A stretch of 36,571 nucleotides of DNA from Acidimicrobiia bacterium. GTDB lineage: Bacteria > Actinomycetota > Acidimicrobiia > Spongiisociales > UBA5794. The stretch is from assembly GCA_030064765.1 (NCBI GenBank), contig JASJEG010000029.1, positions 1-36,571 on the forward strand, read 5' to 3'. A model generated the notes under the pieces. The model saw only the letters and a list, made by a program, of their open reading frames with translations, was not told the DNA's origin and did not search any database. Shown here in pieces: positions 2,462 through 36,480 of this stretch. The translations under genes were made by a program, and so were the position numbers. Each line of letters begins with the position of its first letter. Position 1 is the stretch's first letter.

Positions 2462-4476
2462 GTTTCCTCTCCCGAGTCGTCCGGTGGCGGAACGTACACC
2501 GCGACGTTGACCGTAACCTCGCTACCCGGTTCGATCCACTCACCACCGCCCGGGCTCTGCTCGACGATCAAGCCGCTTTGAGCTTCGTCGTTGACCTCGA
2601 CTGCCGTACCTTCGACCAGAACGAGACCTAGCGCTTCGAGGGCGCTGCGGGCATCGGCAACCGACCAACCCGCCAGTGCCGGTACCTCAACCGGGCAATC
2701 CGAGGTGTCCAGTTCCTCACCCTCTTCTTCGGGCACCAGACACGGGTGCACCTCGATGATCTTGGGTGCTGGCTGGTAGGTCCACTGGTAGTCCTCTTCG
2801 ATAACTGTTCCGTCCGGCCACGTCATGACGCGCTTCACGGTGTTGCTGAAGCCGCCCCAGCCATTCTGAGTCACCTTTTGCTCGTCCGGGTTCAGGTCCT
2901 CATTTGCCTCGAATTCCTCGGGTGGTTGGGTGAACGCATAGCGACTTCCCAACTGGCGCTCGGCTACACAGCCGCCGTTGTTGCCGTAGAACTGGACCGT
3001 GATGTCGGTCTCGGTGTAGTTGGTTTTGATGATGACCATCGTGTCGGTGTTGTTGCGGAAGATCAGGTGCGGCGACGGCCAGGAAATCGTCGCCTCATTG
3101 ACCTCCGGATAGCGAGAGAAGTAATAGCTGTGGGGCTTGTGATCGATCGGCTCGTAGCAGCCGTAGAAGATGGCGTTGTAGAAGGTCGTGGCAAATTGGC
3201 TGACCCCGCCCCCAACGTCGTCGACCAACTCCCCGTTGAAGATCATCGGTGCGGGCACGTAACCCTTGTCCGTGGTGCGCTGCCCAACAAACTCATTGAG
3301 TGAAAACTCTTCGCCGGGCTCTACGATCGCGCCGTCCACCGCGTCGGCCATCAAATGGATGTTGGTGACTCGTCTCTGTCCCGCCGGGTGAGAGGTGGTG
3401 AACTCCGACACGAAACCGATGTCGCCAAGTGCCTGGGCGTCCTCGGTAGTGAATGCCGGGGCGGCCCCTTGGGCGTACGGGAACTCGCCACTGTTTCCTG
3501 AACGCGCCGCGGCCTCTAGTAGTGCGTCTGTGACCAGCGCCGTGTCCAGCACGGTGCCGTGACGCGATGGGATGAGCGTGACCTCTTTGGCTTCCTCATC
3601 GATTACGAGCTCGGCGTCGCGTGGTGGCTGTTCGATTTCCGGTCTCAATGGTGTCAGCAGGGGCACCAGTGCTTGCTCATCGAACTCGAGCAACACCAGA
3701 GGGCCCGATTCGTAGCGGACGTCGCTTATCAGCGCCCCGGCGAGGTCCTCTCTGCTGAAGACGACTTCGAATTCAGGGTCTTCGGCGCGCAGGGTTACGG
3801 GGGCGTCGATGAGGCGAGCCGCTTCGGCAGTGGCCTCATCGATGTCTGCGTTGGTGAGCTCAGGCTGTATCTGAGCCGTTCCCAGGACCACGAGCTCGCG
3901 ATCGATCCCTTGTACGCTGGCCAAGACCGCTTCGTGTGCAGGGTCTCGATCGATACCTTCCCCGGGTCGGGGATAGTCGGGAAGAGCGCGTGTGTCACGG
4001 ATGATCACGCCGCCTTCATAGGCGGGTGAGTCGATCGCTTCGCCTTCCCAGCTGTCGAGCACATCGTCGAGCAGAACCGTGTCGATCGTGACCGGGACAT
4101 CGAGCTCAATCTGGTCGCCAAAGCTTCCAAACCATGAGAAGAAGCCGGCTACGAAGCCCTTGTCGCGGCGTTGTTCCATCGCCTCCGCAACGACCGCCTC
4201 CTCGTCAACCTCCAAGCCAACATCACGAGGATCTAGCAGAAACTCGGTTCCGCTGACTTCGAAGTACGCAGGCTGACTCGCCAACTCGGCCTCGTACACA
4301 CGAAGCGCCTCGGACGCTTCCTCTTCACCCAATCCGCCGAGGTCGACACCTGCGGCGGTGACGTTGCGAGCAATCTCCCCGCTACCACGGATGGTGTCGA
4401 AGGTATAGATGAGAACGGGCAGCACGATGATTGCGGCTGCACCGATCAGGATCCATCGTCGAACGTCTTTAGTCAT
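2458..4476 (-). CDS. VanW-like family protein with N-terminal TM helix, YoaR-type repeats and C-terminal PASTA domain
   Basis: N-terminal hydrophobic helix; VanW block INFxx-like GEEFSLNEFVGQRTTDKGYVPAPMIFNGELVDDVGGGVSQFATTFYNAIFYGCYEPIDHKPHSYYFSRYP; C-terminal PALAGWSVADARSALEALGLVLVEG...IVEQSPGGGEWIEPGSEVTVNV is PASTA-like. Confidence 0.9.
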   Translation of the reverse strand: MTKDVRRWILIGAAAIIVLPVLIYTFDTIRGSGEIARNVTAAGVDLGGLGEEEASEALRVYEAELASQPAYFEVSGTEFLLDPRDVGLEVDEEAVVAEAMEQRRDKGFVAGFFSWFGSFGDQIELDVPVTIDTVLLDDVLDSWEGEAIDSPAYEGGVIIRDTRALPDYPRPGEGIDRDPAHEAVLASVQGIDRELVVLGTAQIQPELTNADIDEATAEAARLIDAPVTLRAEDPEFEVVFSREDLAGALISDVRYESGPLVLLEFDEQALVPLLTPLRPEIEQPPRDAELVIDEEAKEVTLIPSRHGTVLDTALVTDALLEAAARSGNSGEFPYAQGAAPAFTTEDAQALGDIGFVSEFTTSHPAGQRRVTNIHLMADAVDGAIVEPGEEFSLNEFVGQRTTDKGYVPAPMIFNGELVDDVGGGVSQFATTFYNAIFYGCYEPIDHKPHSYYFSRYPEVNEATISWPSPHLIFRNNTDTMVIIKTNYTETDITVQFYGNNGGCVAERQLGSRYAFTQPPEEFEANEDLNPDEQKVTQNGWGGFSNTVKRVMTWPDGTVIEEDYQWTYQPAPKIIEVHPCLVPEEEGEELDTSDCPVEVPALAGWSVADARSALEALGLVLVEGTAVEVNDEAQSGLIVEQSPGGGEWIEPGSEVTVNVAVYVPPPDDSGEET

Positions 4477-4644
4477 AGCGGCAGAAAGGAGGGAGGGGAG
4501 TAGCGGACCCAGATTGTACCGCTACTTGGCGCCAACCTGGTGGTTGGCAAACTCTCGTTGAAAACGCAGCGTAGCAGTAGTTCCACCCAGCGTAGCGTAG
4601 GGCGATGAACCCGCAATCGAGGCGTTGCCGGATAGCATCTGCCC

Positions 4645-5421
4645 ATGATCGACTTCCCTGAGGTAGCACCGGGCGAGCCGCTGACAGTGAGCGCCACGCT
4701 GTTCGTCACCTATTCGAAGTGTCCCGACCAGGCGCTGGGGCGGATGCGCGGTTTCTACCCGCCGGAGAGCCGGGCGTCCTTCAGGGGCGGCCTGGCACAC
4801 CGTGTATTTGCCCGGCATCTGGTTGGCGGTGAAATCGGCGCCGGAGACTTCGACAAGGTGTGCAAGGAGGAGATCGGGTCGTCGATGAATCCGAAGCTTG
4901 GATCACTCGGGCTCAAACCCTCGCAGCTGGACGGCGTCATCCGTGAGGTGGGCGACCTATATCAACGATTCAAGACCATCTCGACTGAGGGTTTTCGCAG
5001 CTCAGAGGTACTGCTCGATGTCGAGCCCGTCGAGGACCTGACACTGCGCGGATCGGTCGACGCCATATTCGACGACAGCCGCGGAGTGCGGCTCGTCGAC
5101 TGGAAGACGGGCGGCCTTTACGAGGTCGAGCAACAGCTCGGCTTCTATGCGCTGCTTTGGGTACTCGATAGGGACGAGTTGCCGGGTCGAGTGGAGGCGG
5201 TATCCGTCAGCTCCGGCGAGAGGGTTAGCGCAACGCCGAGTGTGGAGACCGTGATGGCGACAGCCACCGCAACCGCAGCTCTGGTCACTGAACTGCGGGC
5301 CGCCTTCGATACCGGTCGCGAGCGCCTTGCCAGACTCGCCGGACCCTGGTGCCGCTATTGCGCCTTGCTCGATGGTTGCGACGAGGGACGTGCCGCAGTC
5401 AAGGTGAGCGACGCCGGCTAA
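4645..5421 (+). CDS. RecB/Cas4-type PD-(D/E)XK nuclease with candidate Fe-S cysteines
   Basis: TYSKCPDQALGRM...GLAHRVFARHL...LRGSVDAIFDD..GVRLVDWKTGG..YEVEQQLGFYALL... then WCRYCALLDGC (C-x2-C-x5-C). PF12705 (PDDEXK_1) style. Confidence 0.85.
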   Translation: MIDFPEVAPGEPLTVSATLFVTYSKCPDQALGRMRGFYPPESRASFRGGLAHRVFARHLVGGEIGAGDFDKVCKEEIGSSMNPKLGSLGLKPSQLDGVIREVGDLYQRFKTISTEGFRSSEVLLDVEPVEDLTLRGSVDAIFDDSRGVRLVDWKTGGLYEVEQQLGFYALLWVLDRDELPGRVEAVSVSSGERVSATPSVETVMATATATAALVTELRAAFDTGRERLARLAGPWCRYCALLDGCDEGRAAVKVSDAG

Positions 5422-31344: not shown

Positions 31345-32001
31345 CTACTCGAGATCGTCGATGCCATCGATCGCAGCGCGAAACGCGGCGGCCTCCGCAC
31401 GCCGGGTCATGTCGAGCTTGTGAAGTAGGGCGGACACATAGTTCTTGACGGTCTTCTCCGCCAAGCTCAGTTCATCGGCGATCTGCCGGTTGGTCAAACC
31501 GTCGGCAATGAGCGACAGCACCCGTCTTTCCTGCGGAGAAAGGCGCCGGAGGCGTTCTGCTAGGTGCGCTTCGGCACCGCCGCCATCGAGCGCTGCCTGA
31601 GCCCGGTTGTCGATCACCAGCTCCTCTCCCTGCATGACGCGGCGGATGGTATCTACCAGCGAGCTCAACGCCATTCGCTTGATGACGTAGCCCGACGCTC
31701 CAGCCTCGATCGATGAGCGCAGCAGATCCAGATCGGCGTATGTCGTGAACATCACCACCCGAATCGCCGGGTTGGCTTCTTTGATCGTTCGGCAAGCATC
31801 GATACCCGAGCAATCGTTGAGCCGGATGTCCATCAACACGACGTCGGGTTGCAGGGTGGCGGCTGCGTCTACTGCCTCCTCGCAGTTGCCGGCCTCGCCT
31901 ACCAGCGTCATGTCATGCTGGCTGTCTATGAATGAGGCAACGCCCGCGCGCACCACATAATGATCGTCGACGACGAGTACCCGTATTGCCATTGCATGCA
32001 A
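31345..32001 (-). CDS. NarL/FixJ-family response regulator, DosR-like (paralogue 1)
   Basis: IRVLVVDDHYVVRAGVASFI...DVVLMDIRLNDCSG...LSPQERRVLSLIADGLTNRQIADELSLAEKTVKNYVSALLHKLDM. Likely start MAIRVLVV at 31992. Confidence 0.93.
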   Translation of the reverse strand: MHAMAIRVLVVDDHYVVRAGVASFIDSQHDMTLVGEAGNCEEAVDAAATLQPDVVLMDIRLNDCSGIDACRTIKEANPAIRVVMFTTYADLDLLRSSIEAGASGYVIKRMALSSLVDTIRRVMQGEELVIDNRAQAALDGGGAEAHLAERLRRLSPQERRVLSLIADGLTNRQIADELSLAEKTVKNYVSALLHKLDMTRRAEAAAFRAAIDGIDDLE

Positions 32002-32045: not shown

Positions 32046-32714
32046 CTACTCGTCGATCCAGTCTTCGGGCGGGTACTTGGCCTCGCGGTCGGCTATGCGG
32101 CGCGCCATGTAGGCGGCCGCCTCGTTGCGGTTTCGCAGGCCGAGCTTGGCAAGGAGGCGAGAGATGTAGTTCTTGACGGTCTTCTCAGCTAGGAAGACCC
32201 GGTCGGCTATCTCACGGTTGGTCAGCCCGTCGGCAATCAGCTCCAAGATTCGGACCTCGCGCTCCGACAACTGGGAGAAGACGGGATCGCCCACGCTCTG
32301 ACCGCGGATCTGATTGAACAGCTTGGCGGTTGCCGCTGGATCGATAACGGAGGCGCCCTCACACACGGAACGAACTGCGTCGACGATTCGGTCGCCATCT
32401 ATGCGCTTCACGAGATACCCCGACGCGCCGGCCAAGATCGCCTCGTGCACGGTCTCCTCGTCGACGTGTGACGACAGCATGAGCACCTTGATCTCCGGGA
32501 AGCGCTCGACAATGGTGCGGCAAGCAGCGACTCCGCTCATATCCGGGAGCCGCACGTCCATGACGACGACGTCGGGCGAGTCGTACCCGGCGCGCCGGAT
32601 GGCAGAGGCCCCGCTAGCCGCTTCGCCGGCGACCTCGATGTCATCCTGGGAAGTCAGCAGGGCACGAAGGCCTTCCCGCACGACCGGATGATCGTCAACA
32701 ACCAGAACTCGCAA
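32046..32714 (-). CDS. NarL/FixJ-family response regulator, DosR-like (paralogue 2)
   Basis: LRVLVVDDHPVVREGLRALL...DVVVMDVRLPDMSG...ILAGASGYLVKRIDG...LSEREVRILELIADGLTNREIADRVFLAEKTVKNYISRLLAKLGL. TTG start at 32714 suggested; ORF is open to 32849. Confidence 0.92.
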   Translation of the reverse strand: MRVLVVDDHPVVREGLRALLTSQDDIEVAGEAASGASAIRRAGYDSPDVVVMDVRLPDMSGVAACRTIVERFPEIKVLMLSSHVDEETVHEAILAGASGYLVKRIDGDRIVDAVRSVCEGASVIDPAATAKLFNQIRGQSVGDPVFSQLSEREVRILELIADGLTNREIADRVFLAEKTVKNYISRLLAKLGLRNRNEAAAYMARRIADREAKYPPEDWIDE

Positions 32715-32786
32715 TTTGAATCCTCTCGCTTCGCACACGCTAACGAAGGACGCAATCGGAAGAATCCGCCCAATCGCCCCACCCCA

Positions 32787-32802
32787 GGGGCCGTTCGGCC
32801 CC
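32787..32802. promoter_or_regulatory. Palindrome GGGGCC-GTTC-GGCCCC, candidate DosR-type operator variant
   Basis: Perfect 6-bp arms with 4-nt spacer in the divergent intergenic region between response regulator 2 and the histidine kinase; same 5-4-5 geometry as GGGAC-N4-GTCCC. Confidence 0.4.
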
Positions 32803-32821
32803 AAACCAGTGGACGAGTATC

Positions 32822-33943
32822 GTGCCCCGCATGGATTCCACGGAGTCACGCGACCGCTTCACCGAGCTGCTCGACGCAGCAGCGCAGGTCTCTGAGCAGG
32901 GCGAGCTCCATGGTCTCTTGGAGTCGCTGGTCGAGATAGCAATGGGTCTGACCGGAGCGAGCCACGGTGCTCTGGGAGTCGTTGGGCCCCATGGCTTCCT
33001 GGTTGATTTCATCCACCGCGGGATCGACATGGAAACCGCCCAGCGGATTGGTCACCTCCCCTTGGGCATGGGCGTCCTCGGTGCGATTACTCGCGGGGAA
33101 ACCGTGCGAACCGACGACCTGTCTGCGCATCCGGACTCAACCGGCTTCCCGGTACATCACCCGGCGCTGGGGTCGTTTCTGGGAGTACCGCTGCGCACCC
33201 GCACCGAGCTGTTCGGCAACATCTATCTCGCCGACAAGCCCGGTGGTTTCACTGAGGAGGATCAAGCCACCATTGAGACGCTCTCGATTATCGCCGGCTC
33301 GGCCGTGGCCAACGTGCGAATCCACCGGAGACTGCGCGATGCCGCCGTTGCAGAAGACCGGGCGCGGATTGCTCGCGACGTACATGACGACATCATCCAG
33401 GATCTTTTTGCGGTAGGGCTCTCGCTGCAGGGTCTTGCCGATTCGATGGAGGACATCCCGGAGCAGCAGGACATAGTGCGGACCCAAGTGGCTCGGGTCG
33501 ACGACTGCATCACATCGCTGCGTCAGTTCATATTCAATCTACGGCAGCCGAGTTCCCATACCCGCGACCTCGAGATCGAGGTGAGCGAGCTCGTGGAGGA
33601 GCTCGCCGAGCCATACTCGGCGGAAGTCGAGGTTGCTGTTGACGCGATGGTCGATGGGTTCGGCAATGATTTAGCCGATGCCGTTCTGCACATCATCAAG
33701 GAGGCAACCAGCAACGCGCTCCGTCACTCGGAAAGCCCGGTGGTGCGGGTGCTGGTCACAGGTGGCTTCAACAACCTCTCAGTTTCAGTGATCGATCACG
33801 GCAGGGGTTTCGATGTGGATGCAGACCACCCCGGGATGGGCTTGTCCAATCTCAGGCAACGTGCGGCCGAGGTCGGCGGTGACCTTGCTGTGCAGAGCAG
33901 TGGATCGGGAACAACGGTCACACTGGTTCTACCGATCACCTGA
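32822..33943 (+). CDS. GAF-domain HisKA_3 sensor histidine kinase, DosS/DevS-like
   Basis: ELLDAAAQVSEQGELHGLLESLVEIAMGLTGASHGALGVVGPHGFLVDFIHRGID...GFPVHHPALGSFLGVPLRTRTELFGNIYLADKPGGFTEED; H-box ARIARDVHDDIIQDLFAVGLSLQ; HATPase GMGLSNLRQRAAEVGGDLAVQSSGSGTTVTLVLP. Confidence 0.92.
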   Translation: MPRMDSTESRDRFTELLDAAAQVSEQGELHGLLESLVEIAMGLTGASHGALGVVGPHGFLVDFIHRGIDMETAQRIGHLPLGMGVLGAITRGETVRTDDLSAHPDSTGFPVHHPALGSFLGVPLRTRTELFGNIYLADKPGGFTEEDQATIETLSIIAGSAVANVRIHRRLRDAAVAEDRARIARDVHDDIIQDLFAVGLSLQGLADSMEDIPEQQDIVRTQVARVDDCITSLRQFIFNLRQPSSHTRDLEIEVSELVEELAEPYSAEVEVAVDAMVDGFGNDLADAVLHIIKEATSNALRHSESPVVRVLVTGGFNNLSVSVIDHGRGFDVDADHPGMGLSNLRQRAAEVGGDLAVQSSGSGTTVTLVLPIT

Positions 33944-33968: not shown

Positions 33969-34031
33969 GGGACCCAAAAAGGGACTTTTCGGGACCTTCG
34001 TCCCAGAGTGTCGGGACTATGGGTCCCGACA
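33969..34031. promoter_or_regulatory. Cluster of GGGAC half-sites with two palindromes, candidate DosR-type operators
   Basis: GGGAC starts at 33969, 33981, 33991 and 34013. Site A GGGAC-CTTC-GTCCC (33991-34004) sits within TTCGGGACCTTCGTCCCAGA. Site B TGTCGGGAC-TATGG-GTCCCGACA is at 34009-34031. Confidence 0.6.
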
Positions 34032-34049
34032 TCTGTTAGCGAGTCGCTC

Positions 34050-34055
34050 TACGAT
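34050..34055 (+). promoter_or_regulatory. Possible -10 element (TACGAT) downstream of the GGGAC operator cluster
   Basis: TACGAT fits TANNNT; the expected -35 region overlaps palindrome B. Confidence 0.25.
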
Positions 34056-34126
34056 GGCGCCAGCCGGTGTTGTATGCACGACCGGCGATATGAGCTTGCA
34101 TAACCGTTGAGTGAGTGGGGAGGACC

Positions 34127-34276
34127 ATGACCAGCGAAGGCGAGAGCGACGGCGCGGTCGAGGCTGAGTTCAAGCCCCGCGGGACCGTTGCGTTTGCGGT
34201 TGCTTTTGTGGTGGTGCTGCTGCTGATGTGGTTCAGCATCTACATCATCATGTTGACGCGAGGCACGACGATATGA
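34127..34276 (+). CDS. 49-aa single-TM protein, candidate small subunit of ba3-type oxidase
   Basis: Not in ORF track. GGGGAGGACC RBS then MTSEGESDGAVEAEFKPRGTVAFAVAFVVVLLLMWFSIYIIMLTRGTTI*; stop overlaps the subunit II ATG (ATGA). Confidence 0.75.
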   Translation: MTSEGESDGAVEAEFKPRGTVAFAVAFVVVLLLMWFSIYIIMLTRGTTI

Positions 34277-34779
34277 GCGCTCCAGAGAGTGCCGAGACAC
34301 TCACGATGCACGTCGATCCAACGGAGCGGGCGTGGATCCGGACTGCGATCGTGATTCTCGTCGTATTCGCCGTGTCGGTCACGATTGCTGGTTTCATGCT
34401 CGGTATCCAACTACCGACGACCGAGCAGCGGGTGAACCCCCAGACCGTGCAAAACGCTCTTCCGTGGTCGGAGCCCGGTATCCGTGAGATCGTCGCCGGC
34501 GAGCAGTACGACGTTTACATAGTCGCCAAGCGTTTCTTCTACGAGCCCGGTACTTTCGAGGTCCCTGCCGGCGCCGAGGTCACCTTCTACGTGACTGCAA
34601 CAGATGTGCAACACGGCTTCAAGATCCAGGACACCAACATCAACTTCATGGTGATTCCCGGGCAGGTGTCGACGCTCACGCACACATTCGAAGATCCCGG
34701 TACCTATGACTACATCTGCACCGAGTATTGCGGTCTCGGGCATGCGGTCATGTTCGGCTCTCTGACGGTCACCCCGTAG
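34273..34779 (+). CDS. cbaB: Cytochrome c oxidase subunit II, ba3-type, CuA-binding
   Basis: One TM helix; EQYDVYIVAKRFFYEPGTFEVPAGAEVTFYVTATDVQHGFKIQDTNINFMVIPGQVSTLTHTFEDPGTYDYICTEYCGLGHAVM (C-x3-C-x3-H-x2-M CuA). Confidence 0.93.
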   Translation: MSAPESAETLTMHVDPTERAWIRTAIVILVVFAVSVTIAGFMLGIQLPTTEQRVNPQTVQNALPWSEPGIREIVAGEQYDVYIVAKRFFYEPGTFEVPAGAEVTFYVTATDVQHGFKIQDTNINFMVIPGQVSTLTHTFEDPGTYDYICTEYCGLGHAVMFGSLTVTP

Positions 34780-34791
34780 GAAGGAGACAGC

Positions 34792-36480
34792 GTGGTTACA
34801 GAGACAACAGCGGCTCCTGTCTACGAGCTGACCAAGTCGGACAAGCGGTTTATCGGGTGGCACATCCTCTTCGCAGTGGTAGCACTGACGATTGGCAGCC
34901 TCTTTGGGCCGCTGCAAGCCCTGCAGCATGCCGGGGTTGATTGGTATCCGAGCATCGATTTTCTCTTCATCGAGGTCAACGGTGTCAACTCCTACTACCA
35001 GGGCCTGACGCTGCACGGGGTGCTGAACGCTCTCATCTGGACAACGTTCTTCATAACCGGGTTCTCCACTCTTGCAGTGATTCGGGGCCTGAAGCGGCAG
35101 CTAGCGATTCCGCTACTCAATCGAGTCGGATTCTGGATGATGGTCGTTGGCCTCGTGGTTGCTGCCATCCCGTTGCTGGCCAATGACGCCAGTGTGCTCT
35201 ACACCTTCTACCCGCCGATGGAGGCCGACTCCTTGTTCTACATCGGCCTCGTACTGGTCGTGGTGGGTAGCTGGATCGAGGGTTGGGGCTTCTACGTAAC
35301 CCTGTACCGCTGGCGCAAGGAGAATCCCGACACCAGAACGCCGCTGATTACCTTGGCCGTCGTCATCAACATGGTGATGTGGCAAATCGCAACGTTGGGG
35401 ATCGCGGCCGAGGTTCTGGCCCTGATCCTGCCTTGGTCCTTCGGCTGGGTTAGCGGTATCGATCCCCAGCTATCGCGGACGTTCTTCTGGTTCACCGGCC
35501 ACCCGCTGGTGTACTTCTGGCTGCTCCCGGCCTACGCGTCGTGGTACGGCATGCTTCCCAAGCAGGCCGGCGGCAAGCTGTTCAGCGATTCGCTGGCGAG
35601 GTTGGCCTTCTGGCTGTTCCTGCTGCTGTCGGTGCCCCTCGGGTTCCACCACCAGTTTGTCGACCCTGGTGTCCCCGCCGGCTGGAAGTACATCCACTCG
35701 ATTCTGACCTTTGCGGTCGGCTTCCCGTCCTTGCTGACGCTGTTTACCGTCGTAGCCTCGCTCGAGTATGCGGCGCGGCGCCGCGGCGGCAAGGGCCTTT
35801 TCGGTTGGATCAGGAAGCTCCCGTGGGGCGATTCGTCGGTTACCGCGCAGTTGCTGGCGGGAATCCTGTTCCTATTTGGTGGAATCGGCGGTATCGCCAA
35901 TGCGTCCTACAGCCTCAACCTCGTGCTGCACAACACCACTTGGGTGCCCGGCCACTTCCATCTCACGGTCGCTTCGGCGGTCACCTTGTCGTTCTTCGGT
36001 ATCTCCTATTGGCTGGTGCCGCACATCACCGGCAAGCCGCTGTGGCGGCCCAAGCTGGCGTTGGCCAGCTCCTGGACGTACTTCGCCGGCATGCTGATCT
36101 TCTCGAACGCCATGCACACGGTGGGTCTGCTCGGGGCGCCGCGGCGGACTCCGCTCGGATTGGCCCCGTACGTGCCATCCGAATGGAACGGGCACCTGTT
36201 CCGGGTCGCTGTCGGCGGAGCGATCATGTGGGTCGGCTTGATGCTCTTCGTGGTAGTTGTTGCAGTTACCGCCTTCCAGCGGAGGCGGTTCGCTCCGGGC
36301 GAGTTTGTAGACGTTCCGGTCGCCGAGTCCGTCGAAGACCCGCAGAAGACCCCGGTGTGGCTGGACCGCTGGAAGCCGTGGCTGGTGGCTACCGTCGTGC
36401 TGATAATCCTCGCCTACGGTCCCCAACTGATCGACCAGATCTTCGGCATAGAATCGACCTCCCCGGGAGTGATCCCCTAG
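34792..36480 (+). CDS. cbaA: Cytochrome c oxidase subunit I, ba3-type
   Basis: GTG start with AGGAG upstream; multi-TM; LTLHGVLNALIWTTFF, WFTGHPLVYFWLLPAYASWY, HHQFVDP, HNTTWVPGHFHLTVASA heme/CuB histidine motifs. Confidence 0.95.
   Translation: MVTETTAAPVYELTKSDKRFIGWHILFAVVALTIGSLFGPLQALQHAGVDWYPSIDFLFIEVNGVNSYYQGLTLHGVLNALIWTTFFITGFSTLAVIRGLKRQLAIPLLNRVGFWMMVVGLVVAAIPLLANDASVLYTFYPPMEADSLFYIGLVLVVVGSWIEGWGFYVTLYRWRKENPDTRTPLITLAVVINMVMWQIATLGIAAEVLALILPWSFGWVSGIDPQLSRTFFWFTGHPLVYFWLLPAYASWYGMLPKQAGGKLFSDSLARLAFWLFLLLSVPLGFHHQFVDPGVPAGWKYIHSILTFAVGFPSLLTLFTVVASLEYAARRRGGKGLFGWIRKLPWGDSSVTAQLLAGILFLFGGIGGIANASYSLNLVLHNTTWVPGHFHLTVASAVTLSFFGISYWLVPHITGKPLWRPKLALASSWTYFAGMLIFSNAMHTVGLLGAPRRTPLGLAPYVPSEWNGHLFRVAVGGAIMWVGLMLFVVVVAVTAFQRRRFAPGEFVDVPVAESVEDPQKTPVWLDRWKPWLVATVVLIILAYGPQLIDQIFGIESTSPGVIP

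Follow-up and report, generated by a model that had tools for sequence, protein, structure and literature searches.

The block of inverted repeats in front of the ba3 oxidase genes in this stretch of Acidimicrobiia DNA (36,571 nucleotides, hereafter the window) is probably the operator and promoter of the IIa-cbaB-cbaA operon, through which a DosT/DosS-like kinase and the response regulator RR2 would switch the oxidase on at low O2. From its sequence context we regard it as a real DosR-type operator on a target that is new for DosR. What was observed in the genomes compared, and is presented below, is that the boxes are there and are conserved, how the promoter is laid out, which kinds of protein are encoded nearby, and that other Acidimicrobiia have this box before their ba3 operon too. 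Coordinates are collected in Table 1.

Table 1. Features of the window and related loci (window positions unless a locus is named)
Feature	Position	Strand	Basis
RR1, second NarL/DosR-type regulator adjoining RR2	31345..32001	-	Best PDB match DevR, 154 bits; helix AEKTVKNYVSALLHKL
RR2, DosR-type response regulator, proposed box ligand	32046..32717	-	Best PDB match DevR/DosR 3c3w, 192 bits; helix LAEKTVKNYISRLLAKL
Palindrome GGGGCCGTTCGGCCCC between the RR2 and kinase genes (divergent), putative operator for autoregulation	32787..32802	.	Kept in congeners
DosT/DosS-type sensor kinase (single GAF, HisKA_3, HATPase_c)	32831..33943	+	PDB matches and Pfam domains
Two extra GGGAC half-sites (33969, 33981)	33969..33985	+	0.79 mean pairwise identity, congeners
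Site A, DosR-type box GGGAC-N4-GTCCC, TTCGGGACCTTCGTCCCAGA	33988..34007	+	16/20 to published consensus
Site B, 9-bp inverted repeat, TGTCGGGAC TATGG GTCCCGACA, overlaps -35	34009..34031	+	Aligned in 7/7 congeners
Proposed oxidase-operon promoter: CCGACA 34026-34031, 18-bp spacer, TACGAT 34050-34055	34026..34055	+	TACGAT invariance
Near-invariant leader and ribosome-binding region, GAGTGAGTGGGGAGGACC	34106..34126	+	0.95 mean identity, 7 genomes
49-aa membrane protein, oxidase subunit IIa-like	34127..34276	+	PF08113 CoxIIa, E 4.7e-4, 20.3 bits, just missing the cut-off of 20.7
cbaB, subunit II of ba3 oxidase	34273..34779	+	PF00116 COX2
cbaA, subunit I of ba3-type oxidase	34792..36480	+	Thermus ba3 oxidase 3eh3, E 3.7e-153; PF00115
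Gene after cbaA, partial (contig end)	36517-36571		Complete in L096:753-3080 (-)
PhoD-like gene box loci	L092 (G000:C132:1793), L093, L094, L095		

Sites A and B and the proposed oxidase promoter

A preliminary description placed four GGGAC starts (33969, 33981, 33991 and 34013) between a kinase gene and the operon of a 49-aa ORF, cbaB and cbaA, and direct inspection of the window confirmed both the starts and the position of the block. Site A is a palindrome with the GGGAC-N4-GTCCC core of a DosR box, and its claimed likeness to the published mycobacterial consensus TTSGGGACTWWAGTCCCSAA (PMC2275270) was borne out at 16 of 20 positions. Site B has, as described, perfect 9-bp arms; its spacer is N5 instead of the N4 of a DosR box, and we therefore term it DosR-box-like only. 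This spacer is non-canonical and was seen in this genus only, the boxes of other lineages having N4. The centres of the two sites lie 22.5 bp apart, approximately two helical turns, and sites A and B are the only GGGAC-N4/5-GTCCC palindromes in the 36.6-kb window (0.15 expected in shuffles). The two additional half-sites further upstream are possible secondary DosR contacts. The 3.16-Mb draft genome contains 18 copies of the bare core, compared with 7 of a reversed control, and the remaining copies are mostly intragenic; the bare core is therefore no specific marker, and it is conservation that appears to give the boxes their specificity.

We aligned the intergenic region between the kinase and IIa genes from seven genomes of the genus (this one and six others). 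Mean pairwise identity reaches 0.89 in the half-sites of site A and 0.92 in those of site B, whereas it is 0.54 in the N4 spacer of site A, 0.69 in the N5 spacer of site B and 0.36 in the A-B linker. The stretch directly after the kinase stop (0.37) and the third codon positions of the kinase gene (0.38) are similarly variable. High identity at the half-sites with low identity in the linkers is the pattern that a protein-binding site would be expected to leave. The relatives keep the palindromes as well as the genes, and the order of RR1-RR2, divergent from kinase-IIa-cbaB-cbaA, is the same in all seven genomes. Within 300 bp upstream, the best match to the mycobacterial DosR consensus scores at least 15 of 20 in six of six congeneric records (range 15-17), a level reached by 0.9% of background windows.

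A -10 element of the form TANNNT at 34050, with its -35 on site B, had been predicted, and TACGAT is found at this position, with the -35-like CCGACA overlapping the right arm of site B. The -10 hexamer, which was assigned by its invariance and position, is identical in all seven genomes (1.00), whereas the promoter spacer is merely 0.53 identical. A consensus scan for sigma-70-type promoters called none there, which is compatible with an activator-dependent promoter. Further downstream, the 20 bases before the IIa start codon are nearly invariant in the seven genomes while the earlier leader drifts. The conservation of this element exceeds the need of a ribosome-binding site, and it could possibly act in translational control.

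Regulators, sensor kinase and oxidase

RR2 consists of a receiver domain (PF00072) and a GerE helix-turn-helix domain (PF00196), as identified with Pfam, and aligns to DevR from M. tuberculosis over positions 2-206; the next best match is VraR (159 bits). The recognition helix is intact (FLAEKTVKNYISRLLAKLG in RR2, FLAEKTVKNYVSRLLAKLG in DevR). The phospho-acceptor Asp and the equivalents of K179, K182 and N183 of DosR (AEKTVKNY) are kept and identically aligned. In a maximum-likelihood tree RR2, RR1, DevR and the regulators from Acidimicrobiia form one clade (100/98) without VraR and the Chloroflexota homologues. Best PDB match, helix and tree grouping agree that the regulator is DosR-like. 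The regulators from Ilumatobacter are nearer to DevR than RR2 is in the same tree, and RR2 is therefore classified as DosR-type and not as a proven orthologue. With a closer DevR homologue as a query, RR2 and RR1 were the only regulators of this type in their own genome at E <= 1e-45; RR1 adjoins RR2 in all congeners.

The kinase encoded before the block had been called DosS-like, and its GAF domain indeed has the heme GAFs of DosT (2vzw, 127 bits) and of DosS (GAF-A) as its best PDB matches. The residues equivalent to His149 and Tyr171 align and are retained, in the motifs FPVHHPAL (FPPYHPPM in DosS) and IYLADK (LYLTDK in DosS); the His corresponds to the heme ligand of those proteins and the Tyr to their distal residue. 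At the position of Glu87 of DosS the kinase has Gly, as DosT does, and so resembles DosT. A single GAF domain was found with Pfam instead of the tandem GAF-A/GAF-B, hence we describe the protein as DosT/DosS-like and do not file it as a DosS/DosT orthologue. It may well ligate heme and respond to O2 or NO. In all congeners some 7 bases separate the end of a conserved TATCGT (32818-32823) from the start codon of the kinase gene (ATG, 32831), which suggests that the kinase mRNA is leaderless.

The enzyme encoded by the operon is a heme-copper oxidase of the ba3 type (B-family): its subunits I and II are homologues of those of the Thermus ba3 enzyme, and the IIa assignment falls just below the Pfam cut-off. 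Besides cbaA, each genome of the genus carries one or more additional genes of the heme-copper oxidase subunit I family, so the ba3 enzyme is likely an alternative oxidase. The gene that follows cbaA, complete in one congener, encodes there a 775-aa protein in which a cytochrome b-like membrane part is fused to 4Fe-4S ferredoxin domains and an FlpD/MvhD-like domain; in all congeners and in L102 the coding sequence after cbaA begins with a homologous N-terminus. The fusion protein is a possible, and unusual, electron donor for the oxidase.

Boxes in other lineages and at other genes

We collected 80 records encoding CbaA relatives from named genomes, and outside the genus tested 24 loci from Acidimicrobiia/actinobacteria and 45 from Chloroflexota and others. 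A strict box, GGG(A/C)C-N4/5-G(T/G)CCC within 350 bp upstream, was fixed as a pattern before the sequences were seen, and the expected number was computed from the rest of the same loci. Strict boxes precede the operon in 10 of the 24 other Acidimicrobiia, with 0.26 expected (about 40-fold); examples are ATAGGGACCTTGGTCCCTAG (L129) and ATAGGGACCAAGGTCCCTAT (L132), and there are two copies in an Ilumatobacter genome (L134) and three in another Ilumatobacteraceae genome (L135). The strict box is absent from the other 14, about half of which have degenerate versions (for example L108, L109, L111 and L174) and about seven none; several box-free Acidimicrobiia still have a DosR-like regulator and a GAF kinase. 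None of the 45 loci from Chloroflexota and others carries a strict box (0.28 expected), and Chloroflexota ba3 loci were ruled out as box carriers. Scored against the mycobacterial consensus, 5 of 23 other Acidimicrobiia reach at least 14 (background 3%), their scores being lower because the flanks differ from TTS...SAA. As to the concern that the motif might be equally frequent inside coding sequence, the density of strict boxes upstream of the operon is far above that in the rest of the loci, although the bare core is intragenic as well.

The regulators follow the same division: among the genomes sampled, the top RR2 homologues from Acidimicrobiia have the helix AEKT(V/I)KNYVSN, those from Chloroflexota mostly (G/S)EGTVRNYVSS. 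Many of the sampled Acidimicrobiia regulators adjoin a GAF kinase with a conserved His before Pro. Neither the kinase nor RR2 is encoded beside the ba3 operon in any of the 24 loci of Acidimicrobiia/actinobacteria outside the genus. The Ilumatobacter regulator is closer still to DevR (250 bits), and in that organism a DosR-type box lies between the gene for this close DevR homologue and a divergent PAS-HisKA_3 kinase gene (L200:1465-3267). At the threshold used, no DosS-like GAF kinase was found in the boxed Ilumatobacteraceae genomes. With a PAS kinase beside the regulator, the signal in Ilumatobacter need not be heme-bound O2. The link between box and oxidase thus appears to be retained while the sensor differs between lineages. 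We speculate, tentatively and as an idea that we would not yet call probable, that the main role of the DosR-type system of Acidimicrobiia is to switch a respiratory oxidase, with the box kept on the ba3 operon and the sensor exchanged (heme-GAF or PAS). If true, this would suggest that direct control of a terminal oxidase is an old DosR-type role which the dormancy regulon of mycobacteria lacks. In at least one Acidimicrobiia-type locus, L117, a membrane cytochrome c gene (4345-5145, minus strand) is divergent from the ba3 operon on the other side of the boxed region and may share the operator.

Within the genus, two further boxes are candidates for a wider regulon. The palindrome between the RR2 and kinase genes, GGGG(A/C)CGTTCGGCCCC or a one-base variant, is present in seven of seven congeners, is flanked by the conserved TATCGT and by a minus-strand TAGCGT (32742-32737), and resembles the consensus AGGGCCGATCGGCCCT given for OsdR of S. 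coelicolor (PMC5069765). A box TCGGGACCTANG(T/C)CCC, followed by TACGTT, was seen before the gene of a PhoD-like membrane phosphatase in four congeners and is aligned in three, which makes this gene a probable second target. Strict boxes were found at none of the seven USP loci examined in the 78% complete genome, so the regulon appears different from the mycobacterial one. An acyl-CoA synthetase (Pat/AcdA-like) and acs were rejected as targets, their boxes being unaligned in orthologues or present in one genome only. Two pattern searches were likewise given up: the perfect-core genome scan as a regulon finder, on account of the counts given above, and a degenerate pattern as a genus-wide finder, which yielded 131 matches versus 58 for the control, mostly in coding contexts.

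Proposed control of the oxidase and comparison with known systems

We propose the following mechanism. The DosT/DosS-like heme-GAF kinase, encoded directly upstream, would sense low O2 (or NO/CO) and phosphorylate the divergently encoded RR2, possibly RR1 too. Phosphorylated RR2 would occupy both sites cooperatively, from the same face of the helix, and, site B overlapping the weak -35 of a promoter whose TACGAT -10 is fixed, would recruit the polymerase, such that the high-affinity ba3 oxidase is switched on as O2 falls. The palindrome between the RR2 and kinase genes would provide autoregulation. The preliminary description had the two-component system control the oxidase directly; the DosR/DosS-like proteins and the conserved boxes support such control, whereas we infer that RR2 binds them, that it activates and does not repress, that the kinase ligates heme and that O2 or NO is the signal.

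It is conceivable, but in our estimate unlikely, that the sites are DosR-type operators through which RR1, alone or together with RR2, represses the oxidase or adjusts it to redox or a different signal. RR1 also has a TVKNYVS helix and DevR as its best PDB match and always lies beside RR2, and the PAS kinase of the Ilumatobacter system supports the reading with another signal. A box over the -35 with a second one about two turns upstream is, however, a usual layout for NarL-family activators, and this is how sites B and A are placed; the poor -35 is also compatible with an activated promoter. Against RR1 as the ligand, RR2 is 94-99.5% identical among congeners and RR1 80-91%.

The 9-bp perfect arms and 5-nt loop of site B could fold into an RNA hairpin, either ending the kinase transcript or acting in the oxidase leader, and a minus-strand terminator-like match touches 33973-33993. 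Both roles are very improbable: neither hairpin is followed by a T-run on the plus strand, no plus-strand terminator was called there, and boxes also persist at operons without a kinase gene in front, as in L117; moreover, the proposed -10 is downstream of the repeats, which would thus fall outside a leader. That the repeats are chance GC-rich palindromes or a generic repeat element, as the 18 mostly intragenic copies of the bare core might suggest, we find scarcely credible, given two palindromes within 37 bp, half-sites conserved in seven genomes and a box before this operon in other lineages about 40 times as often as expected. The comparison with other lineages argues strongly against a kinase terminator and chance palindromes alike.

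Activation of the oxidase by RR2 at low O2, with a DosR-type system both adjoining and boxed on a high-affinity oxidase operon, would tie an O2 sensor directly to O2 consumption; in mycobacteria no such oxidase is known to be under DosR. The locus offers a small regulatory unit that lends itself to experiment, and a basis for comparing what DosR-type regulators controlled in other actinobacteria, and a match of regulator, box and target would allow oxygen regulation to be predicted in uncultured Acidimicrobiia. The open-licence literature searched contained no paper that connects DosR to Acidimicrobiia or to a terminal oxidase of the ba3 type, which is not proof of novelty.

DosR is the dormancy switch of tuberculosis, and OsdR a regulator of stress and development in Streptomyces. 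The system described here resembles DosR/DevR of M. tuberculosis in its NarL-family regulator with nearly the same recognition helix and in GGGAC-N4-GTCCC boxes upstream of the promoters to be regulated, and DosS/DosT in its heme-GAF-type kinase with a proximal His and a distal Tyr. It differs from M. tuberculosis in having one GAF domain instead of two, a ba3 oxidase operon as target, no USP boxes in this genome, an N5 spacer at site B and a linked second regulator, RR1. In M. smegmatis, where control of the high-affinity oxidase cydAB by DevR was tested, a devR mutant still shows normal induction of cydA, and cydAB lies outside the DevR regulon (PMC7739888). OsdR/OsdK of S. coelicolor is a functional orthologue of DevR outside mycobacteria; OsdR binds upstream of mycobacterial DevR targets, has its own consensus and has a predicted site at its own gene (PMC5069765). 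Its predicted targets listed there differ, comprising stress, nitrate-reductase and development genes, and that paper has no 'cyd', its passage on an oxidase concerning protoporphyrinogen oxidase (PMC5069765). The oxidase itself is like the ba3 enzyme of Thermus thermophilus, with a subunit I homologous from end to end and with subunit II and a small IIa-like protein in the operon; unlike in Thermus, the acidimicrobial operon is preceded by DosR-type boxes and followed by a cytochrome b/ferredoxin/FlpD fusion gene.
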